Shown here: piece by piece, positions 48,062-63,580 of the stretch
Position numbering within the stretch: position 1 is the stretch's first letter
How the letters are laid out: the number at the start of each line of letters is the position of its first letter
Assembly: GCF_900116565.1 (NCBI RefSeq)
Contig: NZ_FPCJ01000001.1
Location: forward strand, 1,714,540 to 1,778,539
Direction of reading: 5' to 3'
Source of the DNA: Thermoflavifilum thermophilum
GTDB taxonomy: Bacteria; Bacteroidota; Bacteroidia; Chitinophagales; Chitinophagaceae
DNA length: 64,000 nt
Program-made: the position numbers and the translations under genes
Notes under the pieces: model-generated
Told to the model about the DNA's origin: nothing
The model's input: only the letters and a program-made list of their open reading frames with translations
Databases searched by the model: none

Positions 48062-48871
48062 ATGCATGATCACACAACTCTCTGCTATGCTCTGATAACC
48101 GGTGCCAGTGCAGGTATAGGAAAGGCACTGGCAGAAGAATGTGCGCGTCGAAAATTTCCTGTTTTACTGGTAGCCTTGCCAGGCGATGACTTAGCTCGTT
48201 TGGCACAACAGATTCGGGATCAATATGGAGTGAAAACGGATTATCTGGGTATAGATTTTTTGGAGCAAGATAGTGTAATGCGGGTATGGGAGTGGTGCAG
48301 GGATCGGCATTATGCTGTTCGTCTGCTTATCAACAATATCGGCCTGGGGGGCAGGCATCATTTTGAAGAGCTGCAACCCGAGCAAATCACACAGATGATC
48401 CGGTTAAACATTCAGGTTACCACGCAACTCACGCGTGTCTTCATAGAAGACCTAAAGACACATCGCCCGGCTTATATTCTGAATGTAGGCAGTGCTGCGG
48501 GGTTTCTGCATGTGCCCTACAAGGCAGTGTATTCTGCGACCAAGGCATATATTTATTCTTTCAGCCGAGCTTTGCGCACGGAGCTCAGGTCACAGGGCAT
48601 TTATGTGTCGGTACTGTGTCCGGGTGGTGTTTCACATAAACAGGATCCGGTCGTACATCAGAAGATCAATGGCTGGCTTTTTCGGTCGGCCCATGAGAAG
48701 CCGGAATATGTGGCTCGTGTAGCCTTGGACGGGCTTTTTCAGCGCCGAAAAACCATTACGCCGGGCTGGATGTCTACCGCATATTACTGGCTCAGCCGCT
48801 GGATGCCGCCGGCCTGGCTGGATAAGGTCATGCACAGGTTGTTCGCCGAATCAGAAAAGAATTTGCTATAA
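48062..48871 (+). CDS. SDR family oxidoreductase
   Basis: A 269-residue classical short-chain dehydrogenase: 'LITGASAGIGKALAEECARR' at the N terminus, 'NNIGLGG', Ser in 'LNVGSAAGF' and the catalytic 'YSATKAY'. Substrate unknown. The ATG at 48062 fits the usual family start; an in-frame start at 47972 would add 30 unrelated residues. The gene has normal base composition (48 % GC in the line 48601-48660), and the AT-rich block begins right after its stop. Confidence 0.88.
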   Translation: MHDHTTLCYALITGASAGIGKALAEECARRKFPVLLVALPGDDLARLAQQIRDQYGVKTDYLGIDFLEQDSVMRVWEWCRDRHYAVRLLINNIGLGGRHHFEELQPEQITQMIRLNIQVTTQLTRVFIEDLKTHRPAYILNVGSAAGFLHVPYKAVYSATKAYIYSFSRALRTELRSQGIYVSVLCPGGVSHKQDPVVHQKINGWLFRSAHEKPEYVARVALDGLFQRRKTITPGWMSTAYYWLSRWMPPAWLDKVMHRLFAESEKNLL

Positions 48872-48940
48872 GTTAAGAAAATGTTTGAAAAAACATCTAA
48901 TTTAGAGAGCAGAAAATCTAATATTAGTTGATTATTTACA

Positions 48941-49633
48941 ATGGTAAAGTATAGATTTACTGCTTTTAAAGCGGTTGATGACCCAGATTCATGTTTCAGA
49001 TTTATAGAAGGTCATAAAAAGTTATTGGAGATTTATGGAATAAGTATGATAACTTCAAATACTCCTAATTGGGTATATCATGATAATACATATGTTATTT
49101 TGGTTGAATCAATCCCAGATAAAAGAGTTTTAGGTGGGGCACGGGTCCAATTAGTGGATGAAAGTATTGAGGTTCCTTTGATTGAAGCAGTAGGTAAAGT
49201 CGACCGAAGAATCTTTGATTTAGTTTTTAATCCACATTTTAAGACAGCTGAATTATGTGGATTGTGGAATTCTAAGGCTATGGCTATGAATGGTGTGGGT
49301 AGTCTGTATTTGGGTTGGACTGGAATAACAGTAGCTAGAATATTAGGAGTTCAGAAACTTCATGCTCTTTGTGCGCCAGCAACTGTTAAATATTGTTTAA
49401 GATTAGGGTTTACTATTCAGGAAACAGTTGGAAACAAAGGAATATTTAACTATCCAAAGGATAACATGATAGCTACAGTAATGACTGTTGAGGATTTAGT
49501 TAATCTTCCTACATCTGAAGAAGAAATCAGAAAAACAATTTTTGCATTATCGTTAAACCCAATTCAAAATGTAGAATATAATACAAGATTAGGTAGAGTA
49601 TTAATAGAGTATGTATTAAAAATAAAGCCATGA
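48941..49633 (+). CDS. GNAT/autoinducer-synthase-like acyltransferase
   Basis: A 230-residue cytoplasmic protein with a GNAT-like pattern. 'VLGGARVQL' (about 63-71) recalls the GGxRL strand of LuxI- and FeeM-type N-acyltransferases. 'AELCGLWNS' (103-111) corresponds to their conserved Glu-containing motif, and 'HALCAPATVKYCLRLGF' (141-157) is the acyl-donor-binding helix and LGF strand of GNAT proteins. It may join an acyl group from CoA or ACP to an amine to make a small diffusible compound (inference). Its stop overlaps the start of the E1-like gene (ATGA), implying translational coupling. The gene is AT-rich. Donor and acceptor are unknown. Confidence 0.55.
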   Translation: MVKYRFTAFKAVDDPDSCFRFIEGHKKLLEIYGISMITSNTPNWVYHDNTYVILVESIPDKRVLGGARVQLVDESIEVPLIEAVGKVDRRIFDLVFNPHFKTAELCGLWNSKAMAMNGVGSLYLGWTGITVARILGVQKLHALCAPATVKYCLRLGFTIQETVGNKGIFNYPKDNMIATVMTVEDLVNLPTSEEEIRKTIFALSLNPIQNVEYNTRLGRVLIEYVLKIKP

Positions 49634-50754
49634 GTAAATATTATAACCTTTCCGATTTTCTAGAAGTAGTTAATAATATTGGCGATGTAGATACGATTTA
49701 CTCTCCTATATTTTTTAAAATTGTAACGGATAAGGATCGTAAGTCATTACAGTATCTAATAGAATCATATCCCTGTATAAGAATTATCAATTCGATTAGG
49801 AATCAGGTTAATGAATTAATTAAATTAAGAAATCCTTCTAAGGAATTAGATGGAAATCAAATCGAAAGTATAGTAAATAAATTCTTCTCTGATAGAGACG
49901 AACTGAGTTATGGAGTATGGATTTTCTATCCGTGGGAGAACTTTTTAATACACTTACTCGAAGAGGAAGATTTTGTTGAAGTAAGGACATCTAGAAATCA
50001 GTTCAAAATTACGAAAGAAGAACAAGAGGTTTTTAGTAAAAAGAGGGTTGGTGTTATAGGTTTATCTGTTGGTCAATCTATAGCTGTAACTATGGCAATT
50101 GAAAGAATTTGCGGAGAACTCAGGCTGGCTGATTTCGATAAGATTGAGCTAAGTAATTTGAATAGAATAAAGACAAGTATAAAAAATTTATCGTTGAATA
50201 AATCAATAGTTGCAGCAAGGGAAATTTCACTAATTGATCCTTATATTAAGGTAATATGTTTTTGTGATGGGATAAATGAAAATAATATTGATGAATTTCT
50301 TTTGGGAAATAATAGTAAATTAGATGTACTTATTGAAGAGTGTGATAGTGTGGATATTAAAATTTTATCTAGAATTAAAGCTAAATTATATGGTATTCCC
50401 GTAGTAATGGATACGAATGATAGAGGAATGATTGATATTGAAAGATTTGACCTTAATAAGGATTATCCAATACTTCACGGGCTAATTGATAATTTAGATT
50501 ATAAATCTATTTCTAAATTGACAATTAAAGAAAAGATTAAAATACTTGGTCCCATCGCTGGCATAGAAAATATGTCGCCAAGAATGAAGTATTCGTTATC
50601 ACAAATTGGTAAAACAATCACTACTTGGCCTCAATTAGCTTCTTCCGTTATGCTAGGTGGGGCCATTGTTACAGACACTGTACGTCGAATATTTAATGGT
50701 GAATTTAAAAATTCAGGTAGATATTACGTTGATGTTGAGTCTATAGTAAAATGA
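49630..50754 (+). CDS. E1-like ThiF/MoeY-type adenylating enzyme
   Basis: A 374-residue protein. Residues 1-135 are a domain I cannot name, ending 'EVRTSRNQFKITKEEQ'. Residues 138-350 are an E1/ThiF fold: nucleotide loop 'RVGVIGLSVGQS' (139-150), Asp in 'LADFDKIELSNLNRI' (166-180), 'EECDS' (236-240) and 'DTNDRGMIDIERFDL' (261-275). From memory, the last motif and 'TWPQLASSV' resemble the Rv1355c/MoeY-type family, which in actinobacteria carries an additional nitroreductase-like domain absent here. No CxxC zinc pairs and no ubiquitin-like partner are seen. It probably activates a carboxylate as an adenylate. Both ends overlap neighbours by 4 bases. Confidence 0.65.
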   Translation: MSKYYNLSDFLEVVNNIGDVDTIYSPIFFKIVTDKDRKSLQYLIESYPCIRIINSIRNQVNELIKLRNPSKELDGNQIESIVNKFFSDRDELSYGVWIFYPWENFLIHLLEEEDFVEVRTSRNQFKITKEEQEVFSKKRVGVIGLSVGQSIAVTMAIERICGELRLADFDKIELSNLNRIKTSIKNLSLNKSIVAAREISLIDPYIKVICFCDGINENNIDEFLLGNNSKLDVLIEECDSVDIKILSRIKAKLYGIPVVMDTNDRGMIDIERFDLNKDYPILHGLIDNLDYKSISKLTIKEKIKILGPIAGIENMSPRMKYSLSQIGKTITTWPQLASSVMLGGAIVTDTVRRIFNGEFKNSGRYYVDVESIVK

Positions 50755-52973
50755 CAAGATTTCTACATATAACTTTTTTTGTTGTCTTTTTTTTAAACAA
50801 ATTATATTGTTTTCCAACATACCCACATGTAATTAATCTCACAGATCCTAATAAATTGATAAACATAGGGAATGATGTTTTTTATTTTGTTGATTCAAAT
50901 TCTTCGTACTCAATTAATGATATTATTTCAAAACAGGAAATAATATTTAAAAAGTCTACCTCCGAATATTTGAACTTTGGTATTTCTGGATATACTTATT
51001 GGATAATGTTTTCTATTGTAAATTCTACAAGAGAAAATAATTTGATATTAGATATTACTTATCCTACCATCGATACGGTTGATTTTTTTTATTTTCAAGA
51101 TGGTGTAATTAAAAAAATTTCAAAATATCAGTCTAACCTCAAATACTCTCAAATTCCAGGAGTTAATGCCCCTGATTTTTTGTTCTCACTTCATTTACCA
51201 ACGAATCAGTATTCAACCTATTACATTCGTTTGCATTCATATAAACAGCTCCAATTACCTATATTTATTGGTTCTATAAAGAGTGTTTTAAACCAGATTG
51301 GTATTAGAAATCTAATTTTTGGTATTTATGTGGGTATCATTATCATTATGATATTCTATAATCTATTTATTTATATCGTTACTTTGGATGATAATTATTT
51401 GTTTTATGTTATATATATCTTTTTTGTGGGACTTACTCAAGTAACGTTAAACGGATATGGGAATCTTTACATTTGGCCGAGATTTTATTATTTGTCTTTG
51501 AATTCTGATTTCATTATTCCTATATTAAATGGGTATGCTGCTATTTTGTTTATTAGAAATTTTCTCAATCTAAAGAATACATACAAACAAGGTGAATACA
51601 TACTTTATTTTATAGGAATTATTTATACTACATCACTTTTTCTTTTAATTACCAATTTGCGACTGCTTAGCTTTATTTTCTTACAGATAGCTGCTATGTT
51701 TGGTTCCTTTATTGCTATACTTTTGGGAATCAAAGTAGCATTTAGTGGATATAAACCCGCAAAATTCTTTTTACTTGCTCTTGGTGTATTTCTTACTTCT
51801 GTAATTGTTTTTGTTTTAAGAAACTTTAGTATTATTCCTTTTAATATGTTGACGTCTTATTCTCTTGAGATAGGCTCCTCACTTGAGACTATGCTACTTT
51901 CCTTTGCTCTTGCCGATAAAATCAATACCTATAAAGCTGAGAAAGAACAGGCTCAGCTGGCGGCGTTGTCGAAATCAGAAGAGGTGCGGATGATGCTCAG
52001 CCAGCAAAATTTTACCCTGGAACGCATGGTGAAAAAACGCACCGAAGACCTGGAGAAAGCTAACCTGGAGCTTCTTCAAACCCTTAAAAACCTGCAAGAT
52101 GCTCAGGTACAGCTTATTCAGGCTGAAAAAATGGCTACACTGGGACAACTTACTGCCGGCATTGCCCATGAAATCAATAACCCCATCAATTTTGTCAAAT
52201 CTAACGTGAAACCCCTTCAGATGGATCTGTACGATCTGATTGCCCTTATCCAGGCTTATGAAAAACAACTCCAGCTTTTGCTTCCTGCACATGCCATGGA
52301 AGAAATAGAAGCCATTAAAAAGAAAATTCATTATCCTGAATTGATTGACGAAATCCGCATTCTGCTGAAGGGTATTGAGGAAGGCGCAGAGCGTACGGCC
52401 GAAATTATCCGCGGATTGCGCATCTTCAGCCGCCTGGATGAAAGTGAACTTAAAAAAGCAGATATCCACGAATGCATTGACTCCACTCTTATTCTGCTTA
52501 ATAACTCTATTCCGGATGATGTAATAGTCGAAAAGCATTATGCCCAGCTGCCGCTTATTGAATGTTATCCCGGCAAGGTGAATCAAATGCTTATGAATCT
52601 GCTTACCAATGCTATCCACGCAATTAAAAGCAAACTCAAATCTTTACCGTCTTCAAACGAACAAACAAAAGAAAAACAAAAAATCATCATCACTACAGCT
52701 ATGGAACCTGATGGGCAGCACATCCGCATCAGTGTGGCCGATACCGGAACTGGCATGACACCCGAAATCAAACAAAAAATATTTGAGCCATTCTTTACCA
52801 CCAAGGAAGTGGGCGAAGGCACCGGGTTGGGTTTGCCCATCGTGTATAGCATCGTGGAAAAACACGGAGGAAAAATTTTTGTGGAAACTACCTATGGAAA
52901 GGGTTCAGAATTTATCATAATTTTACCCACAACCCCAAAACCGGTCGCGCAGACTCAGGAGGTGAGGGATTAA
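50751..52973 (+). CDS. 7TMR-DISM receptor histidine kinase (mosaic gene)
   Basis: A 740-residue receptor kinase. Signal peptide (1-20); extracytoplasmic ligand-binding domain of 7TMR-DISMED2 type (about 30-175); seven membrane helices (about 185-385) ending 'MLLSFALADKINTYKAEKE'; coiled coil (395-460); kinase core with phosphoacceptor His473 in 'GIAHEINNPINFV'; HATPase domain with 'MNLLTNAIHAI', 'VADTGTGM' and 'GEGTGLGLPIV'. DISM receptors sense extracellular small molecules. Base composition switches from about 20 % to about 50 % GC between 51840 and 51960, at the membrane/coiled-coil junction. The start overlaps the E1-like gene stop, tying the receptor to the putative synthesis genes. The receiver-kinase gene follows after 13 bases. 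Confidence 0.9.
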   Translation: MTRFLHITFFVVFFLNKLYCFPTYPHVINLTDPNKLINIGNDVFYFVDSNSSYSINDIISKQEIIFKKSTSEYLNFGISGYTYWIMFSIVNSTRENNLILDITYPTIDTVDFFYFQDGVIKKISKYQSNLKYSQIPGVNAPDFLFSLHLPTNQYSTYYIRLHSYKQLQLPIFIGSIKSVLNQIGIRNLIFGIYVGIIIIMIFYNLFIYIVTLDDNYLFYVIYIFFVGLTQVTLNGYGNLYIWPRFYYLSLNSDFIIPILNGYAAILFIRNFLNLKNTYKQGEYILYFIGIIYTTSLFLLITNLRLLSFIFLQIAAMFGSFIAILLGIKVAFSGYKPAKFFLLALGVFLTSVIVFVLRNFSIIPFNMLTSYSLEIGSSLETMLLSFALADKINTYKAEKEQAQLAALSKSEEVRMMLSQQNFTLERMVKKRTEDLEKANLELLQTLKNLQDAQVQLIQAEKMATLGQLTAGIAHEINNPINFVKSNVKPLQMDLYDLIALIQAYEKQLQLLLPAHAMEEIEAIKKKIHYPELIDEIRILLKGIEEGAERTAEIIRGLRIFSRLDESELKKADIHECIDSTLILLNNSIPDDVIVEKHYAQLPLIECYPGKVNQMLMNLLTNAIHAIKSKLKSLPSSNEQTKEKQKIIITTAMEPDGQHIRISVADTGTGMTPEIKQKIFEPFFTTKEVGEGTGLGLPIVYSIVEKHGGKIFVETTYGKGSEFIIILPTTPKPVAQTQEVRD

Positions 52974-52986
52974 AACAACCAAGTGT

Positions 52987-54087
52987 ATGCCTGCTGAACA
53001 CATCAGAATATTGTATGTGGACGATGAGGTCAATAATCTGGCTGCATTTCGTGCCACTTTCCGGCGTGATTACGATGTTTTTACTGCTCCCCATTTCGAT
53101 GAAGCCTATCAGATTCTTGAACAGGAGCAGCCCATTCATCTTGTGATTGCCGACCAGCGGATGCCCGGCATGACCGGCGTGGAATTCCTGACCGATATCC
53201 GCAAAAAATATCCGGATCCCTTGCGTGTGCTGCTGACAGCACATATGGACATGGAAGCCCTGATTGAAGCCGTGAACGAAGGCCGTATTTACCGGTATAT
53301 CCGCAAACCCTGGAATGAAGCCGAATTGCATAATACCATTCATAATGCTTATGAAATCTACACGACCCGCATGGAGCTGAGGGAAAAAATGCAGATGCTG
53401 GAAAAAACCAACGATGAACTGAGTCGCTTTATTTACAGCGTATCCCATGATTTACGCTCACCGTTAATGTCTGTGCTCGGCATTCTGAATCTGGCTAAAA
53501 TGGATCAATCGGTCATTGACCCGAATGGATACCTGCAGATGATTGAATCCAGCGTGCTGCGTCTGGATGATTTCATCCAGAAAATCATTGAATATTACAA
53601 GAATTCAAGGCTGGAAATTGAATATGAACCCATCAACTTCAGGCAACAAATTGAAGATACCATCGAGAGTTTCCGGCATCTGCATCTTAATGTGGAATTT
53701 AAAATTGATGTAGATCAACCTGTACCTTTTATTGGTGATAACTTCCGTATCAATGTGGTATTGAACAATCTGATATCGAATGCCATAAAATATCAAAAGC
53801 CCGATGAGCAAAATCCCTGGGTGGCAATACGGGTAAAAGTAAATCCCAGCCAGGCTGTAATTGAAGTATCAGACAATGGAATCGGGATTGTTCAGGAGCA
53901 TTTGCAAAACATTTTTAAAATGTTTTTCCGAACCAAAAGTTTGAATAAGCCAGGTGCAGGTATTGGATTATATATTGCCAAAGAAGCTGTCAGCCGGATG
54001 GGTGGTACGATTGATGTACGTTCCGTGTATGGTGAGGGTACTACATTTGTGGTATGTATTCCCAATCATCCGGAGCACGCACGGTGA
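52987..54087 (+). CDS. Receiver-histidine kinase hybrid (REC-HisKA-HATPase)
   Basis: A 366-residue soluble signalling protein. Receiver at the N terminus (acidic pair in 'YVDDE', phosphoacceptor Asp56 in 'VIADQRMPGMTG', Lys in 'YIRKPW'); then a HisKA helix with His154 in 'YSVSHDLRSPLMS' and a HATPase domain ('NLISNAIKYQ', 'VSDNGIGI', 'GAGIGLYIAKE'). It has no DNA-binding or membrane domain. It probably receives phosphate from the 7TMR kinase encoded immediately upstream and modulates its own kinase, passing the signal to a regulator elsewhere (inference). Composition is normal, unlike the sensor cassette. Confidence 0.9.
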   Translation: MPAEHIRILYVDDEVNNLAAFRATFRRDYDVFTAPHFDEAYQILEQEQPIHLVIADQRMPGMTGVEFLTDIRKKYPDPLRVLLTAHMDMEALIEAVNEGRIYRYIRKPWNEAELHNTIHNAYEIYTTRMELREKMQMLEKTNDELSRFIYSVSHDLRSPLMSVLGILNLAKMDQSVIDPNGYLQMIESSVLRLDDFIQKIIEYYKNSRLEIEYEPINFRQQIEDTIESFRHLHLNVEFKIDVDQPVPFIGDNFRINVVLNNLISNAIKYQKPDEQNPWVAIRVKVNPSQAVIEVSDNGIGIVQEHLQNIFKMFFRTKSLNKPGAGIGLYIAKEAVSRMGGTIDVRSVYGEGTTFVVCIPNHPEHAR

Positions 54088-58585: not shown

Positions 58586-60154
58586 TCAGGGATCTTTTAC
58601 TTTATAAATGATGTACTTTTCCCCCTCTTCAATGGCCTTATAGTATTCTTTGATAAAATGATTGAGTTCAATTTTCTCTCCTTCATTACTTGCTTTGTTC
58701 AGGTAAAAATAGCTGCTTTTGAACATAACGATATATTGTGGCTTATGGGCGTAAAGTCCAAAAATAAATTCATCCCACAAGCTTTGCAGGTAAGGCGGGA
58801 AAACACCCTTCCATTCCATTTCCGTGAAATGAATTTCTTGTAAAAATCTGGTAGGAATATCAGCATGCAATTCTAAAAGTACATTAGATCCGCCTCCTAA
58901 TTCATCGAACACCTGTACTTTTTCATGCTTATGAATGGAGTCTTTTCTCAATTTGTTTACGATTTCCTCAATCATACCTGGCTGCTCAGCTACATTCCTG
59001 TCATATTGATTTATAGGATTTACCTTTTTTACAATTGTTGGAATAGTAAATAAGTCTAATATACACATCCATGATACAATTATCAGGAATCCAAATATTT
59101 TTATTCTTTTATCATCTGATCCTAAAAGATAATAGACAATAATTGAAAGAAATACAGATGAAAAAAAATACAGAGGATACAAATGATAATAAAAATCAGT
59201 ACCCTGTGTCAGATAATGTATCAGAGAGAGTAGTATCCCGGAAACAATCAACAAATTGATAATTCTTTTCCTGCTATTATCATGAATCAATTCTCTAAGA
59301 AAGGGCATACTCAAAATGAAGAAAATAAGCATTATCCCTACAGGAGTTCGCCATATTGTGCTTATCAGGGTAAAGATATTGTTTTTAGCTCCCTTACCAT
59401 ATATAGGCAGATAATGAATTAACATGTCCAGAAAACTGGATAATCCACCTTTATACATAATCCATAAAACAAATAAAACAGGAAAGAAAAGATAACCAAA
59501 TGTGATTAACAAGATTCCTTTAAGCATTTTATTATGATTATCTTTCTGACTTAAGAAAAGTGTAGCAAATAGAAGGATAAAGAATAAGATTCCTGTAGGT
59601 TTAATTCCCGTTGCGTATCCCACAAATATTCCGGATAAAAACAGATTCAGAAAATAATATTTTTTTTGTGCATTCAGGAATAACCAAGTAGATACACTGA
59701 TGCATGCTATCATAAAAAAATCTCTTTCTCCCATAGCTGCTTCTCCTCCCGAAAGATGAATGCCAGCAAAAGAGATTACAAAAAGCAAAATTGATGTGGC
59801 TCCGAATGGCTTTAATATCTTACCTCCGGCAAACAGGGTGATACATAAAAATAAAAGATCTACTATGCGAAACCCTAGGTTCGATTCACCAAATAGTTTA
59901 AGGGTAGCCATATGTATCCAGTAGGTACCCGGCATATTCATATCAAATATTTCCTTGTATGGGATAGCGCCGTCCAATAGCTTTCTGGCTATGTATTGAA
60001 ATATTGGGCTATCAACCAGATAATGCCATCTTAGTGAGGAAAGCAGAAGTGCAGTTGTTGGTAAAGATAAAATAATAATTATGGCATGCAGATATTTTCT
60101 GGGAAGAAACTCCTTTGCTAAAACAGATGCATTGAATCTTTGTATGCTTATCAT
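58586..60154 (-). CDS. GT39-like membrane glycosyltransferase
   Basis: A 522-residue protein with about 11 membrane helices. The first extracytoplasmic loop carries 'LVDSPIFQYIARKLLDGAIP' and 'EIFDMNMPGTYWIH', the acidic pattern of the PMT/ArnT (GT39/GT83) superfamily, which uses polyprenyl-phosphate sugars at the outer face of the membrane. A C-terminal soluble domain of about 120 residues follows. It is the last gene seen of the surface polysaccharide cluster, 17 bases after the TolC-like gene, and is AT-rich like the rest of the cluster. The sugar and acceptor are unknown. Confidence 0.75.
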   Translation of the reverse strand: MISIQRFNASVLAKEFLPRKYLHAIIIILSLPTTALLLSSLRWHYLVDSPIFQYIARKLLDGAIPYKEIFDMNMPGTYWIHMATLKLFGESNLGFRIVDLLFLCITLFAGGKILKPFGATSILLFVISFAGIHLSGGEAAMGERDFFMIACISVSTWLFLNAQKKYYFLNLFLSGIFVGYATGIKPTGILFFILLFATLFLSQKDNHNKMLKGILLITFGYLFFPVLFVLWIMYKGGLSSFLDMLIHYLPIYGKGAKNNIFTLISTIWRTPVGIMLIFFILSMPFLRELIHDNSRKRIINLLIVSGILLSLIHYLTQGTDFYYHLYPLYFFSSVFLSIIVYYLLGSDDKRIKIFGFLIIVSWMCILDLFTIPTIVKKVNPINQYDRNVAEQPGMIEEIVNKLRKDSIHKHEKVQVFDELGGGSNVLLELHADIPTRFLQEIHFTEMEWKGVFPPYLQSLWDEFIFGLYAHKPQYIVMFKSSYFYLNKASNEGEKIELNHFIKEYYKAIEEGEKYIIYKVKDP

Positions 60155-60171
60155 AAGGTTATGTATACAAT

Positions 60172-60897
60172 CTATTTATTTACTGCTCTTAATACATTCT
60201 CTAAGGGCACTCCAATCAACCTTTCGATCTCTAACTTCGACACATTTAAATCTCTTTGCAGGGAGATTTTTTTGCTGAGTTCTTCATTGTAAGACTGAAG
60301 AGCATTGTTATATTCATCCACACTGATCTGCCCGTTTCTGAATTTTTGTTCCGCTTGAAGATAAGTATTGTACAGATTTTCAACCACAGATGTTTCAATG
60401 GTCAACTGTTGTTTATACATCAGATAATCTTGATATTTGCTTAATACATTGGTTTTAATTTCTTCAAATTTACTCAGCTTGGCCATTTGAGCAATTTCCA
60501 GTTCTTTTCTTGCTTGCCTGACCTTATGAGCGTGAGTAGTAAATATACCCAATGGAATAGTGCCACCAAAGTTGTATCTGGGGTAGTAAATATTGGTTAA
60601 ATTTTTAGGCGGACTGATAGAGTATTCATTTATATTTCCGGATAGCGCTACATTGTTCCACCAATCTGTTTTGGCGAGTTTGAGTTGCTCGTTTGCAGCC
60701 TCAACTTGTAGCTCGGCAGATTTTGCATCTGCATTTTCAAGTGCAAGTAGCACAAGTTGTTTCGCAACTGGATCATCTTCTGGAATATATATTCCATATA
60801 TTATGTTATTAGAACCTTGTTGGGTATTCTGTTGCCCAAATAATAAGATCGGATTCAAACCGATTATAAGAATAAATAGCCTGAGAACAATCTTCAT
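60172..60897 (-). CDS. Half-length TolC-family outer-membrane protein
   Basis: A 241-residue exported protein (signal peptide through LLFGQ). It has long amphipathic helices ('LALENADAKSAELQVEAANE', 'LYNTYLQAEQKFRNGQISVD') flanking a short strand region ('ISPPKNLTNIYYPRYNFGGT'), the pattern of one TolC repeat. Full TolC proteins have two repeats and over 400 residues; this has one. It overlaps the polymerase gene by 4 bases (ATGA), so it belongs to the polysaccharide operon and may assist export, perhaps as a homo-oligomer (inference). Confidence 0.7.
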   Translation of the reverse strand: MKIVLRLFILIIGLNPILLFGQQNTQQGSNNIIYGIYIPEDDPVAKQLVLLALENADAKSAELQVEAANEQLKLAKTDWWNNVALSGNINEYSISPPKNLTNIYYPRYNFGGTIPLGIFTTHAHKVRQARKELEIAQMAKLSKFEEIKTNVLSKYQDYLMYKQQLTIETSVVENLYNTYLQAEQKFRNGQISVDEYNNALQSYNEELSKKISLQRDLNVSKLEIERLIGVPLENVLRAVNK

Positions 60898-62336
60898 ATG
60901 ATATTTTTTTCTGATTGAATGTATTTTAACTTTATCATAGCTGCTAAAATGCCGTTATAGATAAAACTAATACTAAAATTGCTGATGGCACCTTGTGAAT
61001 AATCCGATAAAAACCAGGTAAATAGAGCGGCAGCAAACCCCGCAAAAATGATTTTATGCCTATGAGAAGGTTGATGATAATATTGATGGATAGCAAATTT
61101 TAACACAATAAAGTATGTGATAAGCTGAATGATAAAGCCTATCCATCCGATTTCAAGAGCGTTCTGAACAAATACACTATCGGGGGGAAATCCTGCAAGG
61201 GGATGGTGTGGGTATAATTCCAGTGCTTCAAATCCGGTTGTTTTTATTCCCCCTCCAATTGGATGATGATGCATGTATGATTGTTTTGATCTTCGATTAA
61301 GATCCCTAACAATCATCGATGGATCCTGGCTGGGATGGAATGCGCTTCTTACTCTGTTAAGTACTCCATTTTGGAGCGGAGATAAGATTAATGCGGTACC
61401 AATCAATAGAACACCTCCAATGACAATAAGTGTTTTTCTATTTTGAATTGTGAGTAAGCCAAGAAAAATTATTCCAAACGGTATTACGGCAGTTGCTGTC
61501 CGGGTCCCTGAGTAAGACATGCCCAGCAACATAAAGATAATTGCAATAATAAGTAAAGCCGATTTTTTTACTGATAGTTTCATTAGTAGTATACTGATGC
61601 AGAAAACGATGGTTCCAGATAGAAATACACCAAATGCTGCTGGATCAGATAAAGTAGAATATTTTCTGATAAATCCACCCTGGAACAGTATGCCGAATGT
61701 ATGTGGGTCGCTCATTAATCTTCTGTATTCCCATGGGGGTAATCCAAGCCATTGCTGCATGCATCCATATAACGCGACTAAAAAGGCTATTATGATCCAG
61801 AATTTGATGAAAAAATAAATTTCTTTTTCAGTTTTAAATAGGTATAATGAAATCAAATAGAATACAAATCCCATCACTGTGACAGGATATATTTTCATCC
61901 ATCCGACAGGTGGATAGGCATTTGGATTAAATGCTTCCAATCCAAAATAAATCAAAATAATTACATAAGCATAAGTAAAAGGATTATGTATATGATGCCA
62001 TAAACGCTCATGGTGAATAATTTTCCTTAGTATGATACCCACAAATATGGCTCCTGTAAGAAACTCTCCACCAGTACTAACAGGAATACTTAGATTCAAT
62101 AACCTGATGAAAAAATAGGTCAGAAAGCCATACAGAATATCTAAATAATAAGCAATTCCAGGATAAGCTATGCTGATAAATAAAACTATTAGAGAAACAA
62201 TTACTAAAAATAATAACCCTCCAGTCTGCAAGGAGAGCGAATAAGCATAAGAGATCAAGACTACTGCCAGCAGTAGCACCGATATTATTATAGAAGTGTA
62301 TTGCTTTTTATGATATATTTTGTTGGCTGTTATCAT
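60894..62336 (-). CDS. O-antigen ligase/polymerase (Wzy_C-like) membrane protein
   Basis: A 480-residue protein with about 12 membrane helices and a long extracytoplasmic loop (about 330-400) containing 'HHHPIGGGIKTTGFEALELY' and 'HHPLAGFPPDSVFVQNALEI', typical of the O-antigen ligase/Wzy polymerase family. It joins or polymerises repeat units of the surface glycan at the periplasmic side of the inner membrane. Its end overlaps the TolC-like gene; a small 33-residue gene precedes it by 7 bases. Confidence 0.85.
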   Translation of the reverse strand: MITANKIYHKKQYTSIIISVLLLAVVLISYAYSLSLQTGGLLFLVIVSLIVLFISIAYPGIAYYLDILYGFLTYFFIRLLNLSIPVSTGGEFLTGAIFVGIILRKIIHHERLWHHIHNPFTYAYVIILIYFGLEAFNPNAYPPVGWMKIYPVTVMGFVFYLISLYLFKTEKEIYFFIKFWIIIAFLVALYGCMQQWLGLPPWEYRRLMSDPHTFGILFQGGFIRKYSTLSDPAAFGVFLSGTIVFCISILLMKLSVKKSALLIIAIIFMLLGMSYSGTRTATAVIPFGIIFLGLLTIQNRKTLIVIGGVLLIGTALILSPLQNGVLNRVRSAFHPSQDPSMIVRDLNRRSKQSYMHHHPIGGGIKTTGFEALELYPHHPLAGFPPDSVFVQNALEIGWIGFIIQLITYFIVLKFAIHQYYHQPSHRHKIIFAGFAAALFTWFLSDYSQGAISNFSISFIYNGILAAMIKLKYIQSEKNII

Positions 62337-62343
62337 TTAGATC

Positions 62344-62445
62344 CTAAAAAAATTCTATTTTCAGAAATATTATAATTATCCAAATGATAATAAAAATGGT
62401 CATGATTATTTCCAGAATTTCTTCGTTTGAATGCCTTCTGCTCAT
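62344..62445 (-). CDS. Small single-helix membrane protein, 33 residues
   Basis: An open frame of 34 codons on the minus strand, ATG to TAG. It encodes a charged, basic-then-acidic N terminus (MSRRHSNEEILE) followed by an Ile-rich membrane helix (about residues 13-28) and a short KIEFF tail. It begins 1 base after the acyltransferase stop and ends 7 bases before the polymerase start, filling a gap in an otherwise tightly packed operon. This spacing is the main support; AT-rich DNA favours chance Ile codons. Function unknown; similar tiny membrane proteins often modulate a neighbouring membrane complex. Confidence 0.5.
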   Translation of the reverse strand: MSRRHSNEEILEIIMTIFIIIWIIIIFLKIEFF

Positions 62446-62446
62446 T

Positions 62447-63580
62447 TTAGTTATATAATGAGAATGTTACTTTATTTGCATTTTCTAACTTTATGGGTTG
62501 TTTTTCCTGATTTATGCTATTATTTATTCTTTTTTTGTCTAATATAAAAATAAACCATCCACCATTTCTTATAATTAGGTTGTATAGCATGATGCTGAGC
62601 GTGATTGACAGAATCAGGTTAATAGGAAGTAGAAGATTTGTGTTTCTGATTTCTAAACCATGTGTGAATAACACTCTGAATAATGAGGCTATTCCTACAT
62701 GGAGTATGTATATATATAATGAATGGTATCCGACTATCTTCAGAAAATTCAGTTTATCATATTTCCCCAAGATAAAACATATATTTAACATAAAGGCACA
62801 TCCAATCAATGCCACTCCAGCAAATTGGAAGATGTGGGTATATTCTATATTCTCATGTTGTAAGAAATACCATTGTGAAATTATAAAAGCAGGAAGAATC
62901 CCAAAAAACAAACCATGCGATCTATAAATAGGATAGAACTTCTTATTTAGCAGATAGCTTGAAACCAGATCACCTAAGGCAAAAAAAGGATAAAAATAGA
63001 GAAGATCTCTTATGGGGCCACTGTTATACTTTGTCGATAAATAATAAAATATTATTCCTACCCCCAATTGAATTAATGCTGGTATTTTTAACAGATATTT
63101 TAATATAATGTAAAGTACAGACACATTAAATAGTGCAAATAGATACCACATTTGATCAAGTGCATCCGGGTTAGTTATGATGTATGTAAAATCATGAAGA
63201 GTTCGATCTGAGTTTGTATATTTGGAAAATAAGATTTGCAATGTGATCTGTATGGTGCACCAAAGAATATAGGGATAAAGCAATGTTTGTGATTTAACTT
63301 TAATCAGATTAAGCCATCCTCTTTTTTCAAGGCTTTTGCTGATAAATATTCCGGATAAAATAAAGAATAAGGGCATCCGGAAGCTGAAGAACATTTCATT
63401 TGCTTTTAACAGTATGATGTGTATGGGTAACCCGGCCCTTTCAAATCCGATAAGGATATGGCGATAAGCTACCAGAATCAGGGCAATTCCTTTTGCATAA
63501 TCAACCCATGACAGCCTGCTTTGGGTTGCATGGGAGATGTTAAAAAAATATTCAATCCAATATTTAATTTTCAGTTTCAT
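62447..63580 (-). CDS. Acyltransferase family 3 (OafA-like) membrane protein
   Basis: A 377-residue protein with about ten membrane helices and the acyltransferase_3 pattern: 'RLSWVDYAKGIALILVAYRH' at the N terminus with the expected catalytic His, 'FFSFRMPLFFILSGIF', and a late 'YHSLYIYILHVGIA'. It probably adds acetyl or another acyl group to a sugar of the surface polysaccharide. It starts 1 base after the Wzc-type gene stops. Confidence 0.87.
   Translation of the reverse strand: MKLKIKYWIEYFFNISHATQSRLSWVDYAKGIALILVAYRHILIGFERAGLPIHIILLKANEMFFSFRMPLFFILSGIFISKSLEKRGWLNLIKVKSQTLLYPYILWCTIQITLQILFSKYTNSDRTLHDFTYIITNPDALDQMWYLFALFNVSVLYIILKYLLKIPALIQLGVGIIFYYLSTKYNSGPIRDLLYFYPFFALGDLVSSYLLNKKFYPIYRSHGLFFGILPAFIISQWYFLQHENIEYTHIFQFAGVALIGCAFMLNICFILGKYDKLNFLKIVGYHSLYIYILHVGIASLFRVLFTHGLEIRNTNLLLPINLILSITLSIMLYNLIIRNGGWFIFILDKKRINNSINQEKQPIKLENANKVTFSLYN

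Follow-up and report, generated by a model that had tools for sequence, protein, structure and literature searches.

The 64,000-nucleotide window analysed here (Thermoflavifilum thermophilum, assembly GCF_900116565.1, contig NZ_FPCJ01000001.1, positions 1,714,540 to 1,778,539) carries on its forward strand a gene group that is probably one allele of a Bacteroidota signalling module, in which an N-acyl-amino-acid or oxazolone-type signal and its matched receptor are exchanged as specificity cassettes. The group comprises an acyltransferase gene (AT, 48941-49633, 230 amino acids), a gene for an E1/ThiF-like adenylating cyclase (E1, 49630-50754, 374 amino acids), a 7TMR-DISM kinase gene (50751-52973) and, outside the exchanged block, the gene of a conserved partner with receiver and histidine kinase domains (52987-54087; PF00072, PF00512, PF02518; hereafter receiver-kinase). 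Within the kinase gene, a sensor half (50751-51940; likely signal peptide, RetS-like periplasmic DISMED2 and seven-helix membrane domain according to Pfam and model) is followed by a conserved kinase half (51941-52973; coiled coil, HisKA, HATPase_c). A reading made from the sequence alone (the sequence-only reading) had described three genes coupled by ATGA overlaps, and these overlaps were read directly in the letters at 49630-49633 (AT-E1) and 50751-50754 (E1-kinase). Its extent needs a correction, since the third gene runs to 52973 and the receiver-kinase gene belongs to the conserved module as well.

When the window's own genome (G000) was compared with the same-genus relative G001 in 250-base windows, the nucleotide identity amounted to 0.81-0.96 in the flanks, 0.62-0.78 from 48,941 to 51,940 and 0.936 at 51,941-52,190. 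The right border lies at the junction of membrane domain and coiled coil (51900-51960), where the identity in 30-base windows changes from 0.70 at 51870-51899 to 0.90 from 51900. The left border, in the 69-nucleotide gap 3' of the SDR gene stop (48872-48940), is less sharp, with values of 0.97 at 48840-48869, 0.74 at 48900-48929 and 0.77-0.87 up to 49109. The alignment with G001 and with two further same-genus relatives, G002 and G003, showed low conservation at about 48,941-51,900 and high conservation on both sides, which is the non-uniform pattern expected by the sequence-only reading. For the protein, the identity to G001, G003 and G002 was 71%, 33% and 31% in the sensor half compared to 96%, 86% and 82% in the kinase half, and the receiver-kinase was 97% identical to that of G001. 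The change point in the amino acid sequence of the kinase was located at residues 379-386 in 8 of 12 tabulated pairs and at 328-357 in the other four, including G000/G001 (333).

The fourfold sites of G000 and G001 showed the same division. Inside the block, the differences amounted to 57% in AT (40/70), 65% in E1 (50/77), 70% in residues 1-180 of the histidine kinase (19/27) and 62% in residues 181-400 (40/64), whereas they stayed within 20-27% in the rest of the kinase (residues 401-600, 18/80; 601-740, 14/54), in the receiver-kinase (34/136) and in the flanking genes (SDR 32/122, epimerase 35/139, w41 54/203, w42 34/167, w31 61/242). Since the near-saturated synonymous divergence is confined to the block, this pair points to a replacement of the block and not to fast protein evolution. 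A rapid evolution in place of surface-exposed and biosynthetic proteins, without exchange, is therefore very improbable. It would agree with topology tests that do not reject one clade for the four same-genus alleles and with a second DISM kinase of the genus (control set 2; L043, L044, L045), whose sensor half is also clearly less conserved, with a moderate to strong drop. Apart from the synonymous divergence, which is high within the block but not beyond its borders, it disagrees with control set 1, a DISM kinase of the genus without a sensor drop (first hundred or so residues uncovered), with the order of AT and E1, which is reversed in G003 and G002 relative to the window, and with the conflicting Chitinophaga topologies described below.

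The trees of kinase half and receiver-kinase joined the four same-genus rows with a support of 100; in the trees of AT, E1 and sensor these rows were split two and two. Judged from these sequences, exchange of the block is well supported. In G004, a metagenome-assembled genome (MAG) of the same genus, the contig bearing the SDR gene ends at the equivalent of about 48,834-48,849 and another contig starts at 51,928, which brackets the block. These breaks were noticed after the fact and may stem from a mixture of alleles in the population sampled or from composition-based binning.

The base composition confirms the contrast to both flanks that had been claimed for the synthesis genes and the sensor half. 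In 300-base windows from 48,950 to 51,949 the GC content was 0.23-0.38, compared to 0.42-0.53 just upstream and 0.39-0.47 just downstream. By part, it amounted to 0.328 for AT, 0.300 for E1, 0.273 for the first 400 kinase codons, 0.441 for the kinase half and 0.437 for the receiver-kinase. Among 44 open reading frame parts of at least 200 amino acids in the window, the lowest two values belonged to sensor and E1, and AT came fourth from the bottom. A second AT-rich stretch at 58586-63580 (GC 0.32-0.36) holds envelope and polysaccharide genes (PMT_2, outer membrane efflux protein, Wzy_C, Acyl_transf_3), so that the low GC of the block alone is not unique. As proof of a foreign origin, the AT-richness is weak, because these polysaccharide genes share it and the G002 and G003 alleles are less AT-rich.

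The association of the genes recurs in other Bacteroidota. From a scan of genome contigs, the best 80 of 554 relatives entered the analysis as named loci; this set is therefore biased towards close homologues, and an even draw of 198 Bacteroidota genomes is less so. In 68 adequately flanked named loci, E1 is adjoined by AT in 64, by the DISM kinase in 63 and by both in 63; the five exceptions come from Brevibacillus (two loci), Blastocatellia, Dyadobacter and Pedobacter (one each). The 12 loci with short flanks were left out of this count (AT in 10, AT and kinase in 6), and two counted loci have broken frames (L063 with E1 and AT each in two pieces, L086 with the kinase in three). Among 39 genomes of the relatives search, a strong E1 was found in 11, own genome included, each time with AT and DISM kinase beside it; locus and genome sets overlap (L124 = G002, L051 = G010). 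In the 198-genome draw, E1 was detected at E 1e-40 in nine genomes, again including the own one, and AT and DISM sensor were present in all nine, although two of these loci stop short of the kinase half. The three genes are thus found together elsewhere, as the sequence-only reading had supposed, and with E1 in only 9 of 198 genomes the system is patchy.

Further genes were noticed around these loci. Many modules have a receiver-like protein of about 154 amino acids in their vicinity, as a rule divergent from E1, and in several a second kind of about 135 amino acids comes after the receiver-kinase (both L025-L030, L046-L125); Pfam confirmed the receiver identity for two proteins of each size, and neither kind stands beside the module in the genus of the window. 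At L109:6111-6899, L088:1720-2832 and L059:5865-6920, E1 homologues outside the module have other genes directly upstream and no DISM kinase was found near them; by eye, the upstream genes in L109 and L088 resemble acyltransferases.

Across the modules, AT, E1 and sensor diverge in a correlated way, apart from the kinase half. Trees were calculated for 60 modules (28 of the 80 named loci dropped out, each with a missing or truncated part or one scoring below the limits), and 50 modules remained for Mantel tests after 10 of the 60 had been thinned out. Given kinase half and receiver-kinase, the partial correlation was r 0.48 for AT and sensor and 0.41 for E1 and sensor, all pairs of AT, E1 and sensor lying at 0.41-0.48 (0/2000 permutations). 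Kinase half and receiver-kinase correlated with 0.82 given the sensor, whereas kinase half and sensor, although parts of one protein, reached only 0.12 (41/2000) given the receiver-kinase. Similar contrasts are seen in pairs chosen among the first entries of the pair list, with kinase and sensor identities of 87% and 30% (L089/L110), 84% and 37% (L087/L098) and 76% and 31% (L101/L121). In two Pedobacter strains, a gene of 1168 or 1207 amino acids near the module (L101:2648-6154, L121:1837-5460) is 35% identical and nearby genes are 68-97% identical; this gene is a candidate for another exchanged gene.

In 24-row Chitinophaga trees, receiver-kinase, kinase half and E1 place the loci L046 and L049 with one clade, among whose members are records titled Flavihumibacter and Flexibacter, whereas AT and sensor, contiguous in these loci, place them with another. 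The opposite groupings were rejected with p 0.0074, 0.0132 and 0.0146 (receiver-kinase, kinase half, E1) and, marginally, with 0.0431 and 0.0382 (AT, sensor), values that are optimistic since the groups were named after the identity table had been viewed. These placements suggest a joint move of AT and sensor that left out E1 and the kinase half. The claim that a specificity unit is swapped while the kinase output stays is supported by the fourfold sites of G001, but the unit is not constant: sometimes AT and sensor seem to move without E1, and sometimes the sensor seems to change without AT.

The assignment of AT as LuxI/FeeM-like acyltransferase agrees with its predicted structure. The AlphaFold model (pLDDT 93.2) has a FeeM/LuxI-like GNAT fold, with FeeM (2g0b) as best match in the PDB by Foldseek (E 1.3e-7) and by VIA-align (Z 17.3, 177 residues, 2.6 A), followed in the latter by general GNATs (two of them with Z 16.2) and the acyl-homoserine lactone synthases LasI (16.1), TofI (15.8), RpaI (15.4) and BjaI (15.2). 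FeeM is an N-acyl amino acid synthase, and the same function is predicted from the model for the AT of the window. By sequence, neither Pfam nor NCBIfam matched AT at E 1, and a comparison with the sequences of solved structures brought no usable match (best E 0.93 and 0.3). A LuxI-type profile matched none of 65 scanned ATs, window included, at E 0.1, while weak GNAT family matches were obtained for 13 and a weak FeeM match for one. Membership in the LuxI family by sequence was consequently set aside; the likeness is one of fold.

E1 matched ThiF (PF00899, 4e-16), which agrees with the adenylating enzyme of the sequence-only reading and can be refined to the cyclase half of the Rv1355c/TrzS family. 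The match to NF005901 (E 1.5e-135) covers positions 6-339 of 722, i.e. the N-terminal half, and its 453.2 bits lie below the whole-protein cut-off of 476 because the second (nitroreductase/FDO) half is absent. The ThiF half of Rv1355c/TrzS cyclises N-acyl tryptophan, and the family products are N-acyl oxazolones (PMC12856293); similar N-acyl oxazolone biochemistry is described for the related TyzACB pathway (PMC10404671). From this family membership, the likely chemistry is the conversion of an N-acyl amino acid to an oxazolone and not the tagging of proteins. That E1 activates a protein or peptide tag in a ubiquitin-like or amide conjugation, with AT and kinase as targets or regulators, is hardly credible and was set aside: the E1/ThiF fold family as such would allow it, but the specific family points to a cyclase and the adjoining AT is FeeM-like, though no search was aimed at a ubiquitin-like partner. 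An invariant residue of E1, D239, aligned with an aspartate of tRNA threonylcarbamoyladenosine dehydratase.

The desaturase half (nitroreductase superfamily) is absent from the E1 gene of the window, and is fused to E1 in 44 of the 80 named relatives. For TrzS, a saturated cyclised intermediate is described under limited oxygen or with the desaturase disabled (PMC12856293), and by analogy a saturated oxazolone, or what its hydrolysis yields, could be released by the window allele. For desaturase-free alleles, one may even think of a reactive saturated azlactone as the signal, with acylation of the receptor. Mapping the desaturase label on the trees required 3 changes for E1, 4 for sensor, 6 for receiver-kinase, 7 for kinase and 8 for AT (no null computed), a hint that the sensor follows the ring chemistry.

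The third gene encodes, as had been claimed, a 7TMR-DISM histidine kinase, judged from its architecture of DISMED2, seven-helix domain and HisKA/HATPase_c. The matches to 7TMR-DISMED2 (PF07696, 1e-24), 7TMR-DISM_7TM (PF07695, 1e-42) and HATPase_c (2e-24) all exceed the cut-offs; HisKA, with 23.9 bits, lies under its cut-off of 26.9. The N-terminus, read by eye, is likely a signal peptide. For the model of the sensor (residues 1-400, pLDDT 92.2), the RetS periplasmic domain (3jyb, 2xbz) gave the best PDB matches.

Altogether, the cassette for signal synthesis and reception proposed from the sequence is supported, and its working can be pictured as follows. AT would join a fatty acyl group to an amino acid, and the ThiF-like enzyme would adenylate the carboxylate of the N-acyl amino acid and cyclise the compound, with an oxazolone or a similar activated derivative as the result. 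The product would reach the periplasm of the same or other cells and bind there to the RetS-like domain of the kinase, to its seven-helix domain or to both, and the kinase would relay the signal to the receiver-kinase. The specificity of the receptor has to fit the chemistry of the signal, so that synthase genes and sensor half would pass between lineages as a block by homologous recombination, leaving kinase half and partner in place. The signal itself, its secretion and binding and the response to cell density are what we infer from this arrangement.

The same enzymes could serve a single cell. A private feedback of this kind is unlikely but has several observations on its side. In it, the enzymes would supply stress physiology with a membrane-associated or intracellular N-acyl amino acid or oxazolone lipid, whose level in the cell the DISM kinase would control by sensing the lipid or the stress. 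The block holds no transporter gene among its open reading frames and Pfam matches, oxazolones have been linked to stress (PMC12856293, PMC10404671), and tryptazolones are reportedly more abundant intracellularly, although the acyl-tryptophan intermediates occur mainly in the supernatant (PMC12856293). A housekeeping loop, however, does not explain why enzymes and sensor half should be exchanged as alleles, nor why the border should fall within the kinase gene. This exchange could as well reflect warfare, if the product inhibited competitors and the kinase autoinduced its production. For such self-sensing of an antimicrobial, lantibiotic autoinduction is a precedent and the polymorphism fits antagonism too. 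Antimicrobial activity has also been reported for N-acyl tyrosine derivatives (PMC12856293). We nevertheless regard this explanation as quite improbable, as an immunity or export gene would not fit into the block, a weak argument given that the neighbours in relatives were annotated for seven proteins only.

Several points weigh against a signalling module exchanged as specificity cassettes, beside the optimistic Chitinophaga p values. On the side of exchange, synonymous sites against G002 and G003 are near saturation inside and outside the block, so that the synonymous test rests on one genome pair (G000/G001). Approximately unbiased (AU) tests, like all of this kind run on quick trees, did not reject the four same-genus alleles as one clade (E1 p 0.50, AT 0.31, sensor 0.10); a tree proof of import from outside the genus was tried and not reached, and the result speaks only for exchange or for very old allelic lineages. 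Moreover, the kinase half is still correlated with E1 (r 0.41) and AT (0.30) given receiver-kinase and sensor, and the module shows even conservation over much of Chitinophaga. AT and sensor do not always move together either, since L098 and L113 share 80% identity in AT, 66% in E1 and 38% in the sensor, which seems to have changed without AT. On the side of function, the DISM kinase was not found beside the E1 homologues of Brevibacillus, Blastocatellia and Dyadobacter. PF00881 nitroreductase was found in none of the five same-genus genomes G000-G004 (one being an 89% complete MAG) compared to all 14 control genomes, with a profile that does detect the desaturase half of the relative L027 (2.3e-11). 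A ThiF neighbour is furthermore no proof of an oxazolone product, since the clusters for stieleriacine, kyonggic acid and thalassotalic acid (N-acyl tyrosines) hold a ThiF protein and, according to PMC12479983, no oxazolone was observed. The product, its secretion and binding, the density dependence, the output and the route of recombination are likewise inferred.

A wider generalisation is offered with reservation, being less than an even bet in our view: the loci might form a patchy, phylum-wide family of non-peptide quorum sensing with small-molecule pherotypes, in which AT (chain and amino acid), cyclase (ring) and an optional desaturase would set the dialect and the DISM sensor half would be swapped along at a recurrent joint in the kinase. 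If this holds, the oxazolone class would gain a function in signalling and a receptor. To our knowledge, few small-molecule signals are known from Bacteroidota. The locus pairs oxazolone-type chemistry with a candidate receptor in many of them, and the physiological role of oxazolones, termed a major unresolved question in the 2025 tryptazolone paper (PMC12856293), becomes directly testable. The matched and mismatched alleles occurring in nature, together with a defined joint for chimeric receptors, amount to a natural specificity experiment.

Oxazolone enzymes and 7TMR-DISM kinases are already known, but their combination was not found in the literature searched; among the matches listed there, none linked oxazolone/ThiF synthesis to 7TMR-DISM or quorum-sensing kinases. 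The authors of the tryptazolone study do point out that oxazolones resemble cell-cell signals and that cyclic-di-GMP genes adjoin in M. tuberculosis (PMC12856293). The N-acyl oxazolone clusters TrzAS and TyzACB (Mycobacterium) and OxzAB (Pseudoalteromonas rubra) share with the window a FeeM-like acyltransferase (in the window by its predicted model) adjoining an Rv1355c-family ThiF-like cyclase. The window lacks their fused or adjacent flavin-dependent desaturase, and adds the 7TMR-DISM receptor kinase, the receiver-kinase and the exchange of alleles.

On the receptor side, RetS of Pseudomonas resembles the kinase of the window in its DISMED2 periplasmic domain (the best PDB match) and its seven-helix domain. 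SagS and LadS are further Pseudomonas 7TMR-DISM proteins, and the signal of SagS is reportedly glucose-6-phosphate, as given in the title of one study. Unlike the window kinase, none of the three was seen coupled to a synthase. Such a coupling is closer to systems of the LuxI, LuxM, CqsA or RpfF type, which have small-molecule synthases and in some cases kinase receptors. The window likewise encodes its synthase with a membrane histidine kinase, and the AT fold is close to LasI, TofI, RpaI and BjaI; it differs by the adenylating cyclase, by an AT without Pfam family and by the type of receptor and partner.

In agr of Firmicutes, variation affects the signal genes together with just the sensor part of the kinase, as one unit, and spares the kinase half. 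The same division into variable signal genes plus sensor half and a conserved kinase half was observed at the window. In contrast to agr, the predicted signal is a small acyl compound and not a peptide, the receptor is of the 7TMR-DISM type, and the partner is a receiver-kinase and not the LytTR regulator AgrA. Neither AgrB peptidase nor AgrA appeared in the Pfam results for the four module genes, and the overlapping genes leave little room for a small peptide gene of the AgrD type, at which no search was aimed. By this analogy, the locus looks like a non-peptide counterpart of the agr specificity groups.

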